DNA of 40,032 bases, from NCBI GenBank assembly GCA_002070275.1, contig MWCY01000028.1, positions 1-40,032 of the forward strand, read 5' to 3'. This DNA is from Candidatus Hydrogenedentes bacterium ADurb.Bin170. GTDB taxonomy: Bacteria > Hydrogenedentota > Hydrogenedentia > Hydrogenedentales > CAITNO01. Numbering within the stretch: the first letter of the stretch is position 1; every line of letters starts with the position of its first letter. Made by a program: the position numbers and the translations under genes. This document shows, in pieces, positions 1,505 through 40,032 of this stretch. The notes under the pieces were generated by a model. It was not told the DNA's origin, ran no database searches, and worked only from the letters and a program-made list of their open reading frames with translations.

Positions 1505-4500
1505 ATGCAATTCTGCCTTTGCCCCCACCGAAATCTGATTCCGTTTCTTTTTGTGCTGATCCTTTCCGCTTTCTTTTCCGCATCAGGACTTTACGCTCAG
1601 GAAGAAGGATGGTCGGAAGCGCTGTCGGCTGCAAGAGATCAATTCCAGAGCCGTGATGAGGCATCCGCCTCGGAAGCAGTCACCCTAAGCGCCTGGTACA
1701 AAACGGCAGTCTTTGCGAATGTCGCTTTTGATGATGTGGCGCTTCCGGAACAATCCCGGCATCTCAATGAACGCAACGAGGACGGGGGCCGCCTGTGGCT
1801 CCGTGATAGAGACCTTCAGGACGGCATCGTCAATTCTCTTACCTGCGGCGATGGTTCGGCACTATATCTGGCACGCACGATTCGGATTCAGGAGCCAATT
1901 CTGTTAAACATCGGTTTGGGAAGTGACGACGGTATCAAAGTCTGGCTCAACGGAACGCTTGTCCACAGCAATAATGCGGCACGGGTACTGTCTCCCGAAG
2001 CGGACACCCTTACGCTGCCCCTGCTTGATAAAGACAATTTTCTGGTTGTTAAAATTTACAATGTCAGCGGCGGCTGCGGCTTTTATTTCAATATCCGGGA
2101 TGACGGCGCCAAAAATCTCTGGAGGGGTGTGGAGAAAAGCTATCCTCAGGCGTGTCTCCGGATGGCACAGGATCTGGGCGGAACCGATCCATCTGAATGG
2201 ATTGCCAGTGCTGATCCGACGGAGCTTTCAGCGGCAATGGTATCGAAGCGCCTCCAGGGCATGAAAGAAATACAGAACAGGTGGCAGGAAAAATGGGACG
2301 CTATGACAGCATCCGGTGCGGGGGCGCTGACACAGCTGCAATTTTATCAGCACCTGTGCGAGAGCGGTGCGCTTCTGGAGCGTTTCAATCAGATCAACCG
2401 GGAGGCCTTAAGGCTTGCCGTCGAATATCTGGTCAAGGAATTTCCCGACCGTTATGCCGGAGGGCGCGCCTATCTGGACGAACTCGCCGCTCTTGAAGCG
2501 CAGCTGCCTGAGTATTTTGCCGCACTGGGGGAAAATGCCCCCGAAGCCAGGGATATCAGCGCCCGATGGGAAGCGCTGCAGCGGACAGCGCTGCTTGCCA
2601 ATCCACTGCTTGACTTTGAAAAAATTCTTCTGGTGAAAAGGCATGAACGCCAGCTGGGCCTGCCTCAGAACTGGCAGGGGAACTGCTCCATGCCCAGGCG
2701 CGGTTACGACAATGAGCTGGCTCTATTGGACTACCGGACTCAGAACAGTCAGCCGGAAACGCTGTTCCGCCCGGAAAAAGATTATTTTGTGGGCGATGTC
2801 GATCTCCACTTTGACGGCGACAGAATGCTCTTCTCCATGATCGGCAGCCACAACCGCTGGCAGATATGGGAATTGAACAGCGACGGCACCGGTCTGAGGC
2901 AGGTAACGCCCGGCGCTGAAGAGGATGTGGACAACTATGATGCCTGCTATCTTCCTGACGGGAGGATTATCTACGACTCCACCCTCTGTATGCAGGGCAT
3001 TCCCTGTGTGACCGGAAGCGATGCTGTCGCAAACCTCTGTATCATGAATGCCGATGGAAGCGGCATACGGCAGCTCTGCTTTGATCAGGATCACGACTGG
3101 TGTCCCACAGTGCTGAACAACGGCAGAATCCTTTTCAGCCGCTGGGAATATTCCGATACGCCGCACTATTTTACGCGCGTCCTTTTCCATATGAACCCCG
3201 ACGGCACCAATCAGGTGGAATACTACGGCAGCAATTCCTTCTGGCCCAACTCCATGTTCTACACGCGGCCCATCCCGAACAACCCCAGCCAGGTGGTCAC
3301 CATTGTGTCGGGTCATCACGGCGTGGCACGCATGGGCGAACTGGTACTTCTTGATTCAGCGCGGGGCCGTCACGAAGCAAGCGGCGTGGTTCAGCGGATT
3401 CCGGGCAGAGGACAACCGGTGGAGCCTGTCATCGAAGACCAGCTTGTGGACGAGATCTGGCCGAAATTTCTGCATCCCTACCCGCTCAGTGAACACTTCT
3501 TCCTTGTTTCATGCAAACCATCCCCGCCGCAGCCCTGGGGTATTTATCTCGTCGACACTTTCGATAACATGCTGCTTCTTCACGAAGAAAAGGGCTATGC
3601 CCTTTTCGAGCCCCTGCCGTTCCGTGCGATAGCAACGCCGCCCGCCATCCCCGATCGGGTTAACCTTGAAGCGAAGGATGCGTCTGTCTATCTGATGGAT
3701 GTCTATGCGGGCGAAGGGCTGAAAGATGTGCCGCCCGGAACAGTAAAAGCGCTCCGTGTTTATTCTTTCCATTACTGCTATCAGCATATGGGCGGCCATG
3801 AGCATGTGGGCGTGGAAGGGCCCTGGGACGTGCGCCGTATTCTGGGTACAGTCCCTGTGATGCCCGACGGCTCCGCTTTCTTCAAAGTGCCCGCCAACAC
3901 ACCCATTGCCGTACAGCCGCTGGACAGCGAGGGCAAAGCCCTGCAGGTCATGCGCAGCTGGTTTACCGCCATGCCCGGCGAAGTGCTTTCCTGTGTGGGC
4001 TGCCACGAACCGCAAAATACCACACCTTCCCTGCATTATAACCGGGCGGCGCGCCGTACACCCGACCAAATCTTACCCTGGTACGGACTTGCCAGGGGAT
4101 TCAGCTTCCATCACGAAATCCAGCCCGTTCTGGATCGGCACTGCGCAGGCTGCCATGACCGTGACGATTACCCCGACGGCAGGCCCAACCTCAGCAACCG
4201 GAGCGGCAGAGATCACGCCAATTTCACCCTGTCCTATCTGGCGCTGCACCCCTTCGTCCGCCGACCCGGTCCGGAAAGCGACTATCATCTCCAGATCCCC
4301 CTGGAGTGGCACGCCGACACCAGCGAGCTGATTCAGATGCTTAAAAAAGGACATCACGGCGTTCAGCTGGATACTGAAGCCTGGGACCGCCTCACCACCT
4401 GGATAGATCTGAATGTGCCCGATCATGGCAGATGGACCGACCATACGGACAAGGCTAAGGCCTGTGCCGGGCGCCGTGCCGAATTACGCGCTCTTTACGC

Positions 4501-36123: not shown

Positions 36124-36959
36124 AACGCATCTCTCCCGCCATCACCCAGCTGATCGCTGTCGGCTGTCTCTGGACATTCACCCTCCTGACACTTTCCATA
36201 CTGCTCTTTATCATTGCCTATATCCTGATTCAGGGACTGCCCTGGCTCAGCTGGGAATTCCTCTCCCAGGCACCCGAAAGCATGGGACGCCGGGGCGGCA
36301 TTTTCCCCATGATTGTAGGAACCTTCATGGTCGCGGGACTGGCAGTACTCATCGCTGCACCCATCGGCATCGCCACAGCTGTCTATCTGACCGAATATAC
36401 CCGGGAAGGAAAATTCACTTTTATCGTCCGCTTCGGTGCCGACTGTCTGGCAGGAATCCCTTCCATCATTTACGGACTGTTCGGTTTCGTCTTTTTTGCC
36501 ATTGCTCTGGGCATGGGGCTCAGTGTCATTTCCGGTGCCCTCACCCTGACGCTCATGATTCTGCCCACCATCGTGCGCACCGCTGAAGAAGCGATCCGTG
36601 CCGTACCGCCCGCCTACCGTGAAGCGAGTTACGGCCTGGGCAGTACCCGCTGGCAGATGGTCACCCGGGTGGTGCTTCCTCTGGCGCTGCCGGGAATCTG
36701 CACCGGTATTGTGCTCTCTCTGGGACGCAGCATCAGCGAAACCGCTGCGGTCATGCTCACGGCAGGATCCGCGCTGCGCATGCCCCATTCCCTCTCCGAT
36801 TCAACAAGAACGCTGGCACTCCATTTTTATATCCTTTCACGGGAGGGGCTCTCCATGGACAAAGCCTATGCCACCGCTTCCGTGCTGATCCTGCTGATTC
36901 TGGCGCTCAACCTCTTCGCTTACTGGCTCATGCGCCAGGTAACACGGAGGAACGGATGA
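36120..36959 (+). CDS. pstA: Phosphate ABC transporter permease PstA
   Basis: This 279-residue partner of PstC has six predicted TMs. The motifs are DCLAGIPSIIYGLFGFVFF, ILPTIVRTAEEAIRAVPPAYREASYGLGSTRWQ (coupling helix) and LGRSISETAAVMLTAGSA. The ATG at 36120 overlaps the pstC stop, and a longer reading upstream runs through pstC in another frame and is rejected. The stop overlaps the pstB1 start. Because PstC and PstA differ, the membrane part is already asymmetric and could dock two different ATPases in a fixed arrangement, which bears on the two pstB genes that follow. Confidence 0.96.
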   Translation: MKRISPAITQLIAVGCLWTFTLLTLSILLFIIAYILIQGLPWLSWEFLSQAPESMGRRGGIFPMIVGTFMVAGLAVLIAAPIGIATAVYLTEYTREGKFTFIVRFGADCLAGIPSIIYGLFGFVFFAIALGMGLSVISGALTLTLMILPTIVRTAEEAIRAVPPAYREASYGLGSTRWQMVTRVVLPLALPGICTGIVLSLGRSISETAAVMLTAGSALRMPHSLSDSTRTLALHFYILSREGLSMDKAYATASVLILLILALNLFAYWLMRQVTRRNG

Positions 36960-37729
36960 TGCCTCCGGAACAGAACAGCCCTGTTATTGAAGTGCAGAAC
37001 CTCACAGTCACCTCTTATGACAGAACCATTCTGGACGGACTCAGTCTGCCTGTTTATAAAAATGAACGTCTTGCCATTATCGGGCCGTCCAACAGCGGGA
37101 AAACCACCTTTCTCCGATGTCTGAACCGGCTTAATGATCTGCAGCACAGCTTTAAAGTGAGCGGAACCATTCTCCTGAACGGCAGCAATATTTTCGATCC
37201 CGGCGCCGATACCGCTCAGCTGCGGCGAAAAGTCGGCATGGTCTATGCCGTACCGGTGCCGCTGCCCTGGTCAATTTATGAAAATCTGGTTTACGGCCCC
37301 AGACTGGCGGGCGTGCGGGATAAGAACAGGCTGGACGAACTCGTCGAAACATCACTCCAGTCCGCTTTCCTTTGGGGCGAAGTCAAAGACAGGCTCCATA
37401 TGCCTGCCAAAAATCTCTCCGGCGGACAGCAGCAGCGCCTTTGCCTCGCCAGAGTGCTTGCTCTTGAGCCGGAAGTCCTGATCCTCGACGAGCCCTGCTC
37501 CGCCCTGGATCCCATCTCCACAGCAAAAATTGAAGATGCGCTCTTCGAACTCAAGTCAAGGCTCGCCATTGTGCTCGTCACAAACAATACAAAACAGGCG
37601 GCACGCGCCTCCGACCGTACCGCTTTCTTCCTCATGGGAAAACTCATCGAAATGAAGGAAACCGGACGGCTCTTCACAAACCCCTCCGATAAGCGCACCA
37701 ACGATTATCTGGTCGGACAATTTGGCTAG
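36956..37729 (+). CDS. pstB: Phosphate ABC transporter ATPase PstB1, catalytically degenerate site
   Basis: This 257-residue ABC ATPase of the PstB family has several substitutions. Walker A is GPSNSGKTT (43-51) instead of GPSGxGKST. The Q-loop Gln of VGMVFQ is Ala98 (VGMVYA, followed by VPVPLP instead of PNPFP). The switch His of VTHN is Asn210 (VTNN). In contrast the ABC signature LSGGQ (154-158), Walker B VLILDEP with Glu179 and the SALDP D-loop are normal. Lys49 remains, so nucleotide binding is likely but hydrolysis at its own Walker A site is probably poor. It overlaps pstA by ATGA, and a second ATG one codon later is an alternative start. PstB2 follows seven bases downstream with the opposite pattern of defects. 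Confidence 0.94.
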   Translation: MMPPEQNSPVIEVQNLTVTSYDRTILDGLSLPVYKNERLAIIGPSNSGKTTFLRCLNRLNDLQHSFKVSGTILLNGSNIFDPGADTAQLRRKVGMVYAVPVPLPWSIYENLVYGPRLAGVRDKNRLDELVETSLQSAFLWGEVKDRLHMPAKNLSGGQQQRLCLARVLALEPEVLILDEPCSALDPISTAKIEDALFELKSRLAIVLVTNNTKQAARASDRTAFFLMGKLIEMKETGRLFTNPSDKRTNDYLVGQFG

Positions 37730-37736
37730 GAGTCCC

Positions 37737-38492
37737 ATGGACGCAAAGATTGAAACAAAAAATCTGAACCTCTATTACGGAGACTACCACTCCCTCAAGG
37801 GAGTGAATATCGCCATTCCGCCCAGAAGCATCACCGCCATTATCGGTCCCTCCGGATGCGGAAAATCAACGCTTCTCCGCTGTTTTAACCGGATGAACGA
37901 GCTGATTCCCGGCGTCATCATTGAGGGTGAAATCCTCCTGGATGGAGAAAATATCCACCAGCAGGGCACAGATCTCATCCGGCTGCGCAGGCGTGTGGGC
38001 ATGGTATTTCAACGGCCGAACCCCTTCCCCCTTTCCATCGCCGACAACATCACCTACGGGCTGCGCGTGCACGGGACACCGCCCGGACAGAAACACAGCG
38101 ATATTGTGGAAAACAGCCTCCGCGCCACGTTACTCTGGGAAGAAGTAAAAGACAAACTGCACAGCCCCGCACTGGCGCTCTCGCCCGAACAGCAGCAGCG
38201 CCTCTGCATTTCGCGCGTCCTCGCCATTGAACCGGAAATCCTTCTCATGGATGAACCCTGTTCCGCCCTCGACCCCATTGCCACAGACCATATCGAAGAT
38301 CTTATGCGCGATCTGTCAGAAAGCTACACCATTATTATCGTTACCCATAATATGCAGCAGGCATCACGTGTCTCCTCCTGGTCCGCATTCATGCTCATGG
38401 GCGAACTCATCGAGTTCGGACCCACCGTGCGCATTTTCAACAACCCCAGAGATAAGAGAACGGAAGCCTATATCTCAGGCCGTTACGGATGA
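37737..38492 (+). CDS. pstB: Phosphate ABC transporter ATPase PstB2, altered signature motif
   Basis: This 251-residue ABC ATPase of the PstB family has a canonical Walker A, GPSGCGKST (37-45). The Q-loop is VGMVFQRPNPFP (Gln92), Walker B is ILLMDEP (Glu173), the D-loop is SALDP and the switch His is His204 in VTHNMQQA. The ABC signature is LSPEQ (148-152) instead of LSGGQ. Its own signature should therefore be poor, while its Walker A site should work if paired with the intact LSGGQ of PstB1. The ATG at 37737 is chosen because AGGAG lies just upstream. Ending IFNNPRDKRTEAYISGRYG is typical of PstB. The sequences of the two ATPases are clearly diverged, so the duplication is old. Confidence 0.95.
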   Translation: MDAKIETKNLNLYYGDYHSLKGVNIAIPPRSITAIIGPSGCGKSTLLRCFNRMNELIPGVIIEGEILLDGENIHQQGTDLIRLRRRVGMVFQRPNPFPLSIADNITYGLRVHGTPPGQKHSDIVENSLRATLLWEEVKDKLHSPALALSPEQQQRLCISRVLAIEPEILLMDEPCSALDPIATDHIEDLMRDLSESYTIIIVTHNMQQASRVSSWSAFMLMGELIEFGPTVRIFNNPRDKRTEAYISGRYG

Positions 38493-38523: not shown

Positions 38524-39222
38524 ATGACCAGGCACTTCCAACACGAAATCGAAAAACTGAAAGTACGCATCCTTGCCCTGGCTGCTCTGGTCGAAAAATC
38601 GGTGCGAAACGCCGTCACCGCCCTGGCCGAACGCGACACCGAAATGGCACAGGTTGTAATCGGCGAAGACAGAGAGATTGACCTGGTCGAAGTGGATATA
38701 GAAGAGGAATGCCAGAAAATTCTCGCTCTCCATCAGCCCGTGGCGCACGACCTGCGGTTCATTATCGCCGTCCTCAAAATCAATGCGGAACTCGAACGCA
38801 TCGGTGATGCCGCTGTCAGCATCGCCGAGCAGATCTGCTATTGGGTGAACGAAGGGCACACGGACGTATCCTATGACTTCGAGTCCATGGCGAAAAAGGC
38901 GCAGGCTATGCTTCATAACAGCCTCGACGCACTCGTAAACTTCAATGCGCAGACTGCCTTTGAAGTCATTGCCGAAGACGATAAAGTGGACGAAATCTAC
39001 GGGGACGTACACCGCTTTGTCCGGCGTGGCGTACAGAGTGCGCCCCATCAGTCGGGAGGATTCATTCATCTCCTCGCCATCTCCCGCCATATTGAGCGCA
39101 TCGCCGACCACGCATCCAACATTGCCGAAGTGGTTATCTATCTTGTCGAGGGACGCATCATCCGCCACCGCGCCAAGGACGCCATGAAACAGGACACCTT
39201 CGGCAACGGCTCACAAAGCTGA
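38524..39222 (+). CDS. phoU: Phosphate signalling regulator PhoU
   Basis: This 232-residue protein is made of two three-helix bundles with the metal-binding motifs in each half: ELERIGDAAVSIAEQ and HIERIADHASNIAE, both of E-R-I-x-D-x-A type. PhoU restrains the Pst transporter and the PhoR kinase when phosphate is ample. The ATG at 38524 is chosen because GGAG lies upstream and it begins the family-like MTRHFQHEIEKLK. A longer reading overlaps pstB2 in another frame. It is the last gene of the operon, 31 bases after pstB2. No clear terminator is seen before the tRNA fragment. Confidence 0.96.
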   Translation: MTRHFQHEIEKLKVRILALAALVEKSVRNAVTALAERDTEMAQVVIGEDREIDLVEVDIEEECQKILALHQPVAHDLRFIIAVLKINAELERIGDAAVSIAEQICYWVNEGHTDVSYDFESMAKKAQAMLHNSLDALVNFNAQTAFEVIAEDDKVDEIYGDVHRFVRRGVQSAPHQSGGFIHLLAISRHIERIADHASNIAEVVIYLVEGRIIRHRAKDAMKQDTFGNGSQS

Positions 39223-39309
39223 GTTTCTGCTCTCTGCTGAAAATAAGGATGGCTCACCCTGCCGGGAAAAGAGGAAACGGGCAGAAGAAGCTGTAAAAGA
39301 GGTGGGAAA

Positions 39310-39360
39310 TGGCGCGCCCAGCAGGACTCGAACCTGCGACCTTCTGCTCCGGAGGCAGAC
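39310..39360 (-). pseudogene. 3' fragment of tRNA-Arg(CCG), likely attachment site
   Basis: On the minus strand the fragment starts one base before the anticodon stem (TCTGC, loop CTCCGGA with anticodon CCG, GCAGA). It continues through the variable loop AGGTC, the T-arm GCAGG-TTCGAGT-CCTGC and acceptor strand TGGGCGC, and ends G-CCA. The D-arm and 5' acceptor strand are absent: the sequence beyond 39360 cannot pair. This is the usual trace of a tyrosine-recombinase element that integrated into a tRNA gene, leaving a partial copy at one end and the intact tRNA at the other. The intact copy should lie to the right, outside the window. Confidence 0.8.
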
Positions 39361-39403
39361 GGCAAGAGGTTATAACATGTTGAATTATAAAGAGTTAGAC
39401 GGG

Positions 39404-39462
39404 CTTCCTGTGAACACTTGTACTCCTACTTGTCAAAATTTCAAAAAAGTGTTCACGGGAAG
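39404..39462. repeat. Long inverted repeat inside the element edge
   Basis: Two 16-base arms (39404-39419 and 39447-39462) match at 15 positions and are separated by 27 bases. They contain GTGAACACTT and its complement. ACGTTTTT follows on the plus strand. It could be an integrase or excisionase arm site, an operator or a terminator. Confidence 0.55.
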
Positions 39463-39486
39463 ACGTTTTTCAGCATCAAAAAACAT

Positions 39487-39596
39487 CCGGAGGGAACCCT
39501 AGGTTCTTCCCGGAGGAGCGGATAGCACTGGCTACGCAGCCCACCCCCTAATTTTTATCCCTACAGGAGTTTAATTTTGCAAAAATGCAAAAACTC
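39487..39596. other. Two further hairpins in the AT-richer element start
   Basis: A 12-base stem with one mismatch and two G-T wobbles and a three-base loop lies at 39487-39513. A TTTTGCA/TGCAAAA stem lies at 39575-39592 inside a GAGTTT...ACTC pairing ending at 39596. The stretch from 39361 to 39647 carries no gene I can support. Its density of stems is unusual compared with the rest of the window and could mean a structured RNA or recombination sites. Confidence 0.4.
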
Positions 39597-39647
39597 AAGT
39601 GCAAGAACTGTAAGTGAAAGTCCCCCCAAAAGCAGGAGCACTAGACT

Positions 39648-40032
39648 ATGACAGAGAAACAAAAAGCAGTGCACACTATCCCCTTCAAGCAGTGGCTTAA
39701 AGAACAGATCCCGGCGGGCATGTCTGATATTCAGCTGCCGTACATTGAGGAACATCTTCAGGGGAAAACATTCACTCGATCCTATTCCAGAAAAGAAGGT
39801 GAGGAGATACGGTACGTCTATGACATGACTCCAGTCGGCTATGTTCGGGCGTGGGTTCGCGAAGTGCACAAGGATAATAAAAGGCTTCTGGAGTATGGGC
39901 TTCAGGTTTGTGATGACTTTGAAAAAGGACTCCTTCAAGTTTACGATCTTCCCGGGAAACTGAGAGGCTACATTGAAGACTACATGGAAGAAGTGTGCAT
40001 CGAAGACTCCCCTTTAGATAATCCCGTCTGGT
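39648..40032 (+). CDS. Unknown protein, truncated by the window end
   Basis: Translation from the ATG at 39648 stays open for 128 codons to the end of the window. AGGAG lies nine bases upstream. The visible part starts MTEKQKAVHTIPFKQWLK and is rich in charged residues and aromatics, with no signal peptide or recognised motif. It is predicted cytoplasmic. It is the first gene past the tRNA fragment and so probably belongs to the integrated element. Its base composition is visibly more AT-rich than the phosphate operon. It does not show integrase motifs in the visible part. Confidence 0.65.
   Translation, partial: MTEKQKAVHTIPFKQWLKEQIPAGMSDIQLPYIEEHLQGKTFTRSYSRKEGEEIRYVYDMTPVGYVRAWVREVHKDNKRLLEYGLQVCDDFEKGLLQVYDLPGKLRGYIEDYMEEVCIEDSPLDNPVW

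Follow-up and report, generated by a model that had tools for sequence, protein, structure and literature searches.

A half tRNA-Arg(CCG) gene next to phoU as the footprint of a small mobile element in Candidatus Hydrogenedentota, and the integrase family behind it

Results

A half tRNA gene next to phoU

The half tRNA-Arg(CCG) gene next to phoU in Candidatus Hydrogenedentes bacterium ADurb.Bin170 is confirmed as the footprint of a small mobile element that inserted into an arginine tRNA gene, an event of an ordinary type. The stretch analyzed (“the window,” 40,032 nucleotides) is contig C28 of a 3.5 Mb genome in 164 contigs (G000). We are highly confident that the half gene represents attR of an element integrated in this Candidatus Hydrogenedentota chromosome and that C28 and a second contig, C95, carry its two ends. 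The sequence evidence for this comprises a duplicated core, a rebuilt tRNA, a displaced 3′ half, intact catalytic residues in the integrase, matched end motifs and complete relatives of the same anatomy. The features of the window involved are:

38524..39222, plus strand: phoU, last gene of the pst operon and chromosomal flank outside the element (PF01895, E 3.7e-43; the same-genus homologue is 88% identical and has no tRNA behind it)
39300..39361, minus strand: att core or scar, consisting of tRNA-Arg(CCG) nt 26-77 (39310-39361) plus 10 bp past CCA; direct repeat of C95:5358-5419
39362..40032, no strand: left end of the integrated element, which continues past the contig end (drop in G+C; end motifs common to C95 and contig C41 of the same-genus genome G001)
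39404..39462, no strand: inverted repeat with arms 39404-39419 and 39447-39462, containing GTGAACACTT in both orientations (94% complementary; also conserved at the left end of the element in G001)
39410..39435, plus strand: probable arm-type integrase site GTGAACACTTGTACTCCTACTTGTCA, with ACTTGT repeated at a 12-bp period (the genome's only other copy is at C95:5213-5238)
39648..40031, plus strand: element gene without an assigned function, its frame still open where the contig ends (128 aa visible)

Read on the minus strand from 39361 to 39310, the fragment is CGTCTGCCTCCGGAGCAGAAGGTCGCAGGTTCGAGTCCTGCTGGGCGCGCCA and equals nt 26-77 of the 77-nt intact tRNA-Arg(CCG) at C95:5368-5444 (minus strand), which is called by both ARAGORN and Rfam; ARAGORN detected no complete tRNA in the window. 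Comparison with the whole of G000 showed that the identity continues 10 bp beyond CCA, giving a 62-bp match at 100% (39300-39361 versus C95:5358-5419, E 5.8e-26), and the second-best place for the scar sequence is a tRNA-Arg(TCT) with an 85% match. A sequence-only reading had described half a tRNA-Arg(CCG), from the anticodon stem-loop to CCA with the 5′ half missing, and had predicted that an integrase and an intact gene sharing this 3′ half would lie farther to the right; both are borne out by C95. Its limits of 39310-39360 need revision: the fragment is real, and the duplicated segment is instead 39300-39361 on the minus strand. Taken alone, the scar is textbook material and mainly corrects an annotation (a tRNA fragment, not a gene), while also locating the edge of an element in an uncultured phylum.

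The DNA past the scar has the properties that had been ascribed to it. It is richer in AT (45.3% G+C at 39362-40032 versus 54.3% before the scar), it holds the inverted repeat, and the start of a gene without family match is present at 39648, for which no Pfam, PHROG or PADLOC match was found; neither the 40 related genomes nor a single-protein scan of IMG/VR yielded a relative. With up to three mismatches allowed, the 26-bp motif GTGAACACTTGTACTCCTACTTGTCA occurs at exactly two places in G000, C28:39410 and C95:5213, both without mismatch and neither reversed. The copies lie 48 bp and 119 bp inside the cores, one near each junction, and complete relatives have comparable tandem motifs of their own at both ends. 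The 26-bp motifs are presumably arm-type integrase binding sites, and the inverted repeat probably provides further arm sites.

The other end of the element

Contig C95 is 7.1 kb long; in the direction of the tRNA 3′ end it carries a small Cys-rich ORF, followed by a primase-helicase of 803 aa (AAA_25, E 2e-30, and PriCT_1), an HTH protein of the Cro/C1 type and a tyrosine integrase (455 aa; Phage_integrase PF00589, E 5e-15) that adjoins the 3′ end of tRNA-Arg(CCG), its stop codon lying 175 bp before the tRNA. An alignment of 16 members (the C95 protein and 15 relatives) has R281, K310, H388, R391, H414, and Y424 invariant, which, from established knowledge of tyrosine recombinases, we take to be the catalytic residues. 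Because both cores are in direct orientation, the order reads phoU, half tRNA, element, integrase, intact tRNA and a prepilin-like DUF1559 gene beyond the tRNA 5′ end, and this order and orientation across C28 and C95 are as expected for integration into a tRNA gene. Among the G000 contigs searched, none overlaps the end of C28 or C95 and none joins them; we thus infer that they are the ends of one element. It would be at least 6.0 kb long, with 671 bp seen on C28, 5357 bp seen on C95 and the middle unassembled. Each genome has very many diverged copies of prepilin-like DUF1559 genes (G000:C95:5539-6699, G001:C164:14214-17900), and some of these stand in tandem.

In the proposed mechanism, the tyrosine integrase would have recombined attP with attB in the anticodon arm of a tRNA-Arg(CCG) beside phoU, attP being the 62-bp core that copies the 3′ part of the tRNA, flanked by arm sites. 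Because the element would have brought its own 3′ half, the intact tRNA could be rebuilt from it at the integrase end (C95), and the displaced original 3′ half would have stayed beside phoU. Such integrase-mediated recombination of attP and attB would have been reversible, at least in the past, and the element may still be able to excise; neither an excised circle nor an empty site was seen for the exact phoU locus.

Complete relatives in Hydrogenedentota and Planctomycetota

The integrase family was detected in 26 of 40 related genomes, and its named matches belong to Candidatus Hydrogenedentota and Planctomycetota, with few exceptions; a single-protein scan of IMG/VR returned no relatives. 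In the related genomes, the integrase 3′ end nearly always faces a tRNA 3′ end at a distance of about 150-260 bp, and the isotypes involved are Arg, Val, Lys, Asp, Phe, Pro, His, Met, Gly, Glu, and Leu. Five elements are bounded, each having at its ends an identical repeat of a tRNA half (48-58 bp): two at Arg (9.4 and 8.9 kb) and one each at Lys (7.4 kb), Asp (5.5 kb) and Phe (5.4 kb); eight more (7.0-9.5 kb) are bounded in named Planctomycetota genomes. Each of these 13 complete relatives (L169, L171, L187, L207, L209, L230, L233, L234, L239, L240, L103, L106, and L113; 5.4-9.5 kb) is flanked by a tRNA and its fragment, both on one contiguous stretch, whereas the ends of the window’s element are on C28 and C95.

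ORFs of the relatives match primases, primase-polymerases, DnaB-like helicases, HTH proteins and assorted cargo, and no relaxase, capsid or portal is among the 25 commonest families listed. They look like phage-satellite or integrative-replicon elements, and the window’s element may spread in one of these two ways, which fits the relatives best. Phage satellites such as the PICI and P4-like elements consist of an integrase, a regulator and a primase core without structural genes, in about 5-15 kb. The likeness lies in the small size of the relatives, in the combination of integrase, HTH protein and primase/helicase with no structural genes seen, and in the TerS-like gene of one relative; the differences are that most genes lack matches and that no helper is known. 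Against a phage collection, the integrase of one relative matched two Streptococcus satellite integrases at 27%, with no close relatives. The relative concerned in the TerS comparison is the 5.5-kb tRNA-Asp element (L103), where two small ORFs at 3474-4332 (minus strand) resemble the phage small terminase subunit (PF05119), a hint that a helper phage might package it.

The sequence-only reading had left the nature of the inserted element between a phage and a genomic island. The element scar stands, and a full temperate prophage is unlikely: its integrase, Cro/C1-type HTH protein and primase-helicase are genes of phage type, and an unassembled gap separates C28 from C95, but the 13 complete relatives span just 5.4-9.5 kb, with no large terminase among their 25 commonest families listed either and only one TerS-like carrier. 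Capsid, portal and terminase genes are absent from the assembled part of the window’s element, the middle of which is missing.

Neither of the two observations that the sequence-only reading had named as refuting it was made: the scar is not present in all relatives, and an intact tRNA-Arg(CCG) without this integrase on its contig is present in G002, G004, G005, G006, G008, and G010. The same-genus genome G001 has an identical half tRNA that ends at the same base and is accompanied by the same inverted repeat and ACTTGT motif (G001:C41:910-966, L086); the flank of this scar is an aminotransferase-like gene, not phoU. No intact tRNA-Arg(CCG) was found in the G001 assembly. Its phoU is located elsewhere with no tRNA near, and therefore neither supports nor refutes an empty site at phoU.

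Two further integrases of the family occur in G000. On C84 (L054, 5342-6700), a sister integrase, truncated and sharing 81% identity across aa 159-455, lies beside a tRNA-Val in similar flanking DNA and is, by our reading of the translation, fused to a serine-recombinase-like N-terminus, so that it is probably a decayed element hit by another one. The third, at C64:14278-15627 (L055), is of the type whose frame overlaps the attachment site (see below), and its tail, which contains the repeat CVTPGVTP, stays open until the contig ends.

One element or two

With three integrases of the C95 family in one genome, the scar and C95 could derive from two different elements, by a tandem array or by successive integrations at the same tRNA, the window end then being an older relic, and the phoU-side DNA just past CCA does resemble the right end of the element slightly beyond the exact repeat. 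We regard this as very improbable: the exact 26-bp motif is common to C28 and C95 only, their cores are identical over 62 bp, and the C84 integrase belongs to tRNA-Val with a diverged motif. Chance or artifact, in the form of a tRNA-derived repeat, decay of a tRNA gene or an assembly chimera, deserves mention given that the source is a metagenome-assembled genome of 164 contigs in which only 0.7 kb separates the repeat from the end of its contig; it is extremely improbable in view of the independent genome G001, in which the repeat breaks at the same tRNA position and the end motifs agree, and of the bounded relatives, which have the same kind of break.

The single integrated element that we favor has the hallmarks of a tRNA-integrated genomic island: an intact tDNA and a likewise oriented, identical copy of its 3′ part (62 bp, 100%) would enclose an interval that encodes a PF00589 tyrosine integrase with the R/K/H/R/H/Y residues. 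It shares with islands of the Islander type (Hudson et al., PMC4383910) the intact tDNA with a displaced 3′ fragment in direct orientation, the integrase beside the intact tDNA, and a break in the anticodon arm (site class A). The sole difference is that the window’s copy is split over two contigs. The scar itself is ordinary; the integrase family behind it deserves a separate look.

An integrase frame through attP in the relatives

In a set of 93 loci, the integrase frame enters or crosses the tRNA gene, read antisense, at 43 of the 49 tRNA-adjacent loci, and it stops at once at 24 of the 27 loci without a tRNA that have enough flank. The association of an extended frame with a tRNA neighborhood has a Fisher test p of 3e-11, which is not proof, because the integrase tree shows only about 6 changes and the counts are thus not independent.

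We then built excised circles in silico for all 13 bounded elements by joining the integrase gene, the core and the left end of the element. The frame continues uninterrupted past the core in every one of the 13 computed circles, for 59-106 residues, and the extension usually ends in a hydrophobic helix-like motif, LxxALxxLxxDERxxLLxxL. Mutual matches among the extensions were found for 29 of 78 pairs in frame versus 3-18 in the other five readings, and the other frames of this DNA contain more stops. Four pairwise comparisons gave an excess of third-position differences (18/12/35 summed over codon positions 1/2/3). Since the frame in the circle is open and conserved, attP with its arm sites would lie inside the integrase gene of these relatives, and integration would, going by the computed circles, swap the C-terminal piece for a short tail encoded antisense by the tRNA.

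We therefore consider it likely that the usual design of this family in Hydrogenedentota and Planctomycetota is an integrase gene containing a complete attP (arm site, tRNA core, arm site), with a full-length enzyme of 600-730 aa made in the excised circle only. Integration would trade the conserved C-terminal helix-like piece for a few tRNA-antisense residues, a built-in switch that may promote integration by the full-length enzyme and keep the element in place once it is integrated, and the overlap would have been lost secondarily in the window’s lineage. Should the C-terminus confined to the circle prove real, this design would operate in a large bacterial family and at many different tRNA genes, and small, portable int-attP cassettes would make it possible to test how integration affects integrase activity.

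The window’s own integrase is the exception. Its frame does not cross attP, the stop lying before the tRNA as it likewise does in the C84 sister, and in the tree it is nested among relatives of the overlapping type; the window’s element has a conventional int with a downstream attP. We also considered whether the integrase tail is a frameshifted or coupled second ORF (L008:5186-5488), which overlaps the int stop as GTGAGTAA and has an open frame in C95 as well as in C84. A coding role was rejected because the substitutions between the C95 and C84 tails have no codon-frame preference, with 5-6 synonymous versus 13-15 non-synonymous codons in every frame.

Comparison with known integrases

The closest layout that we found is that of the Int protein of Myxococcus phage Mx8, which resembles most relatives in having a catalytic part, a linker, a tRNA-antisense core and a C-terminal piece exchanged on integration; its sequence has a tRNA-antisense-like segment followed by about 90 residues. 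The attP of Mx8 is located within int (Tojo, 1996, cited in PMC4383910; reviewed in PMC6070905). Homology of Mx8 Int to the integrase family of the relatives was rejected (no phmmer hit; hhalign probability 1.9%), and Mx8 Int differs from the window’s own integrase, which stops before attP.

The Islander authors mention Mx8 and SSV as cases in which the integrase reaches across attP (PMC4383910), and according to a 2021 review, only archaea have recombinases that disrupt their own gene (Badel et al., PMC8371274). The SSV-type suicidal archaeal integrases (PMC8371274) have the att site within the integrase gene, as in the relatives, but integration splits off their catalytic domain, whereas the relatives keep it whole and lose the C-terminal tail only. 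Descriptions of an integrase frame running through attP were found for Mx8 alone among bacterial phages, plus the SSV-type archaeal integrases, and no paper on this integrase family was found in the open-licence literature.

Paired pstB genes in the pst operon

The pst operon that ends with phoU contains two adjacent pstB genes (plus strand) with complementary defects. The product of the first (36956-37729) has an altered Walker A (GPSNSGKTT), no Q-loop glutamine and an H-loop VTNN, with the LSGGQ signature intact; that of the second (37722-38492) has intact Walker A, Q- and H-loops and the signature LSPEQ. The same pairing is present in G001, G003, G008, and G020, which suggests that the ATPase for phosphate import is a heterodimer in which one of the ATP sites is degenerate.
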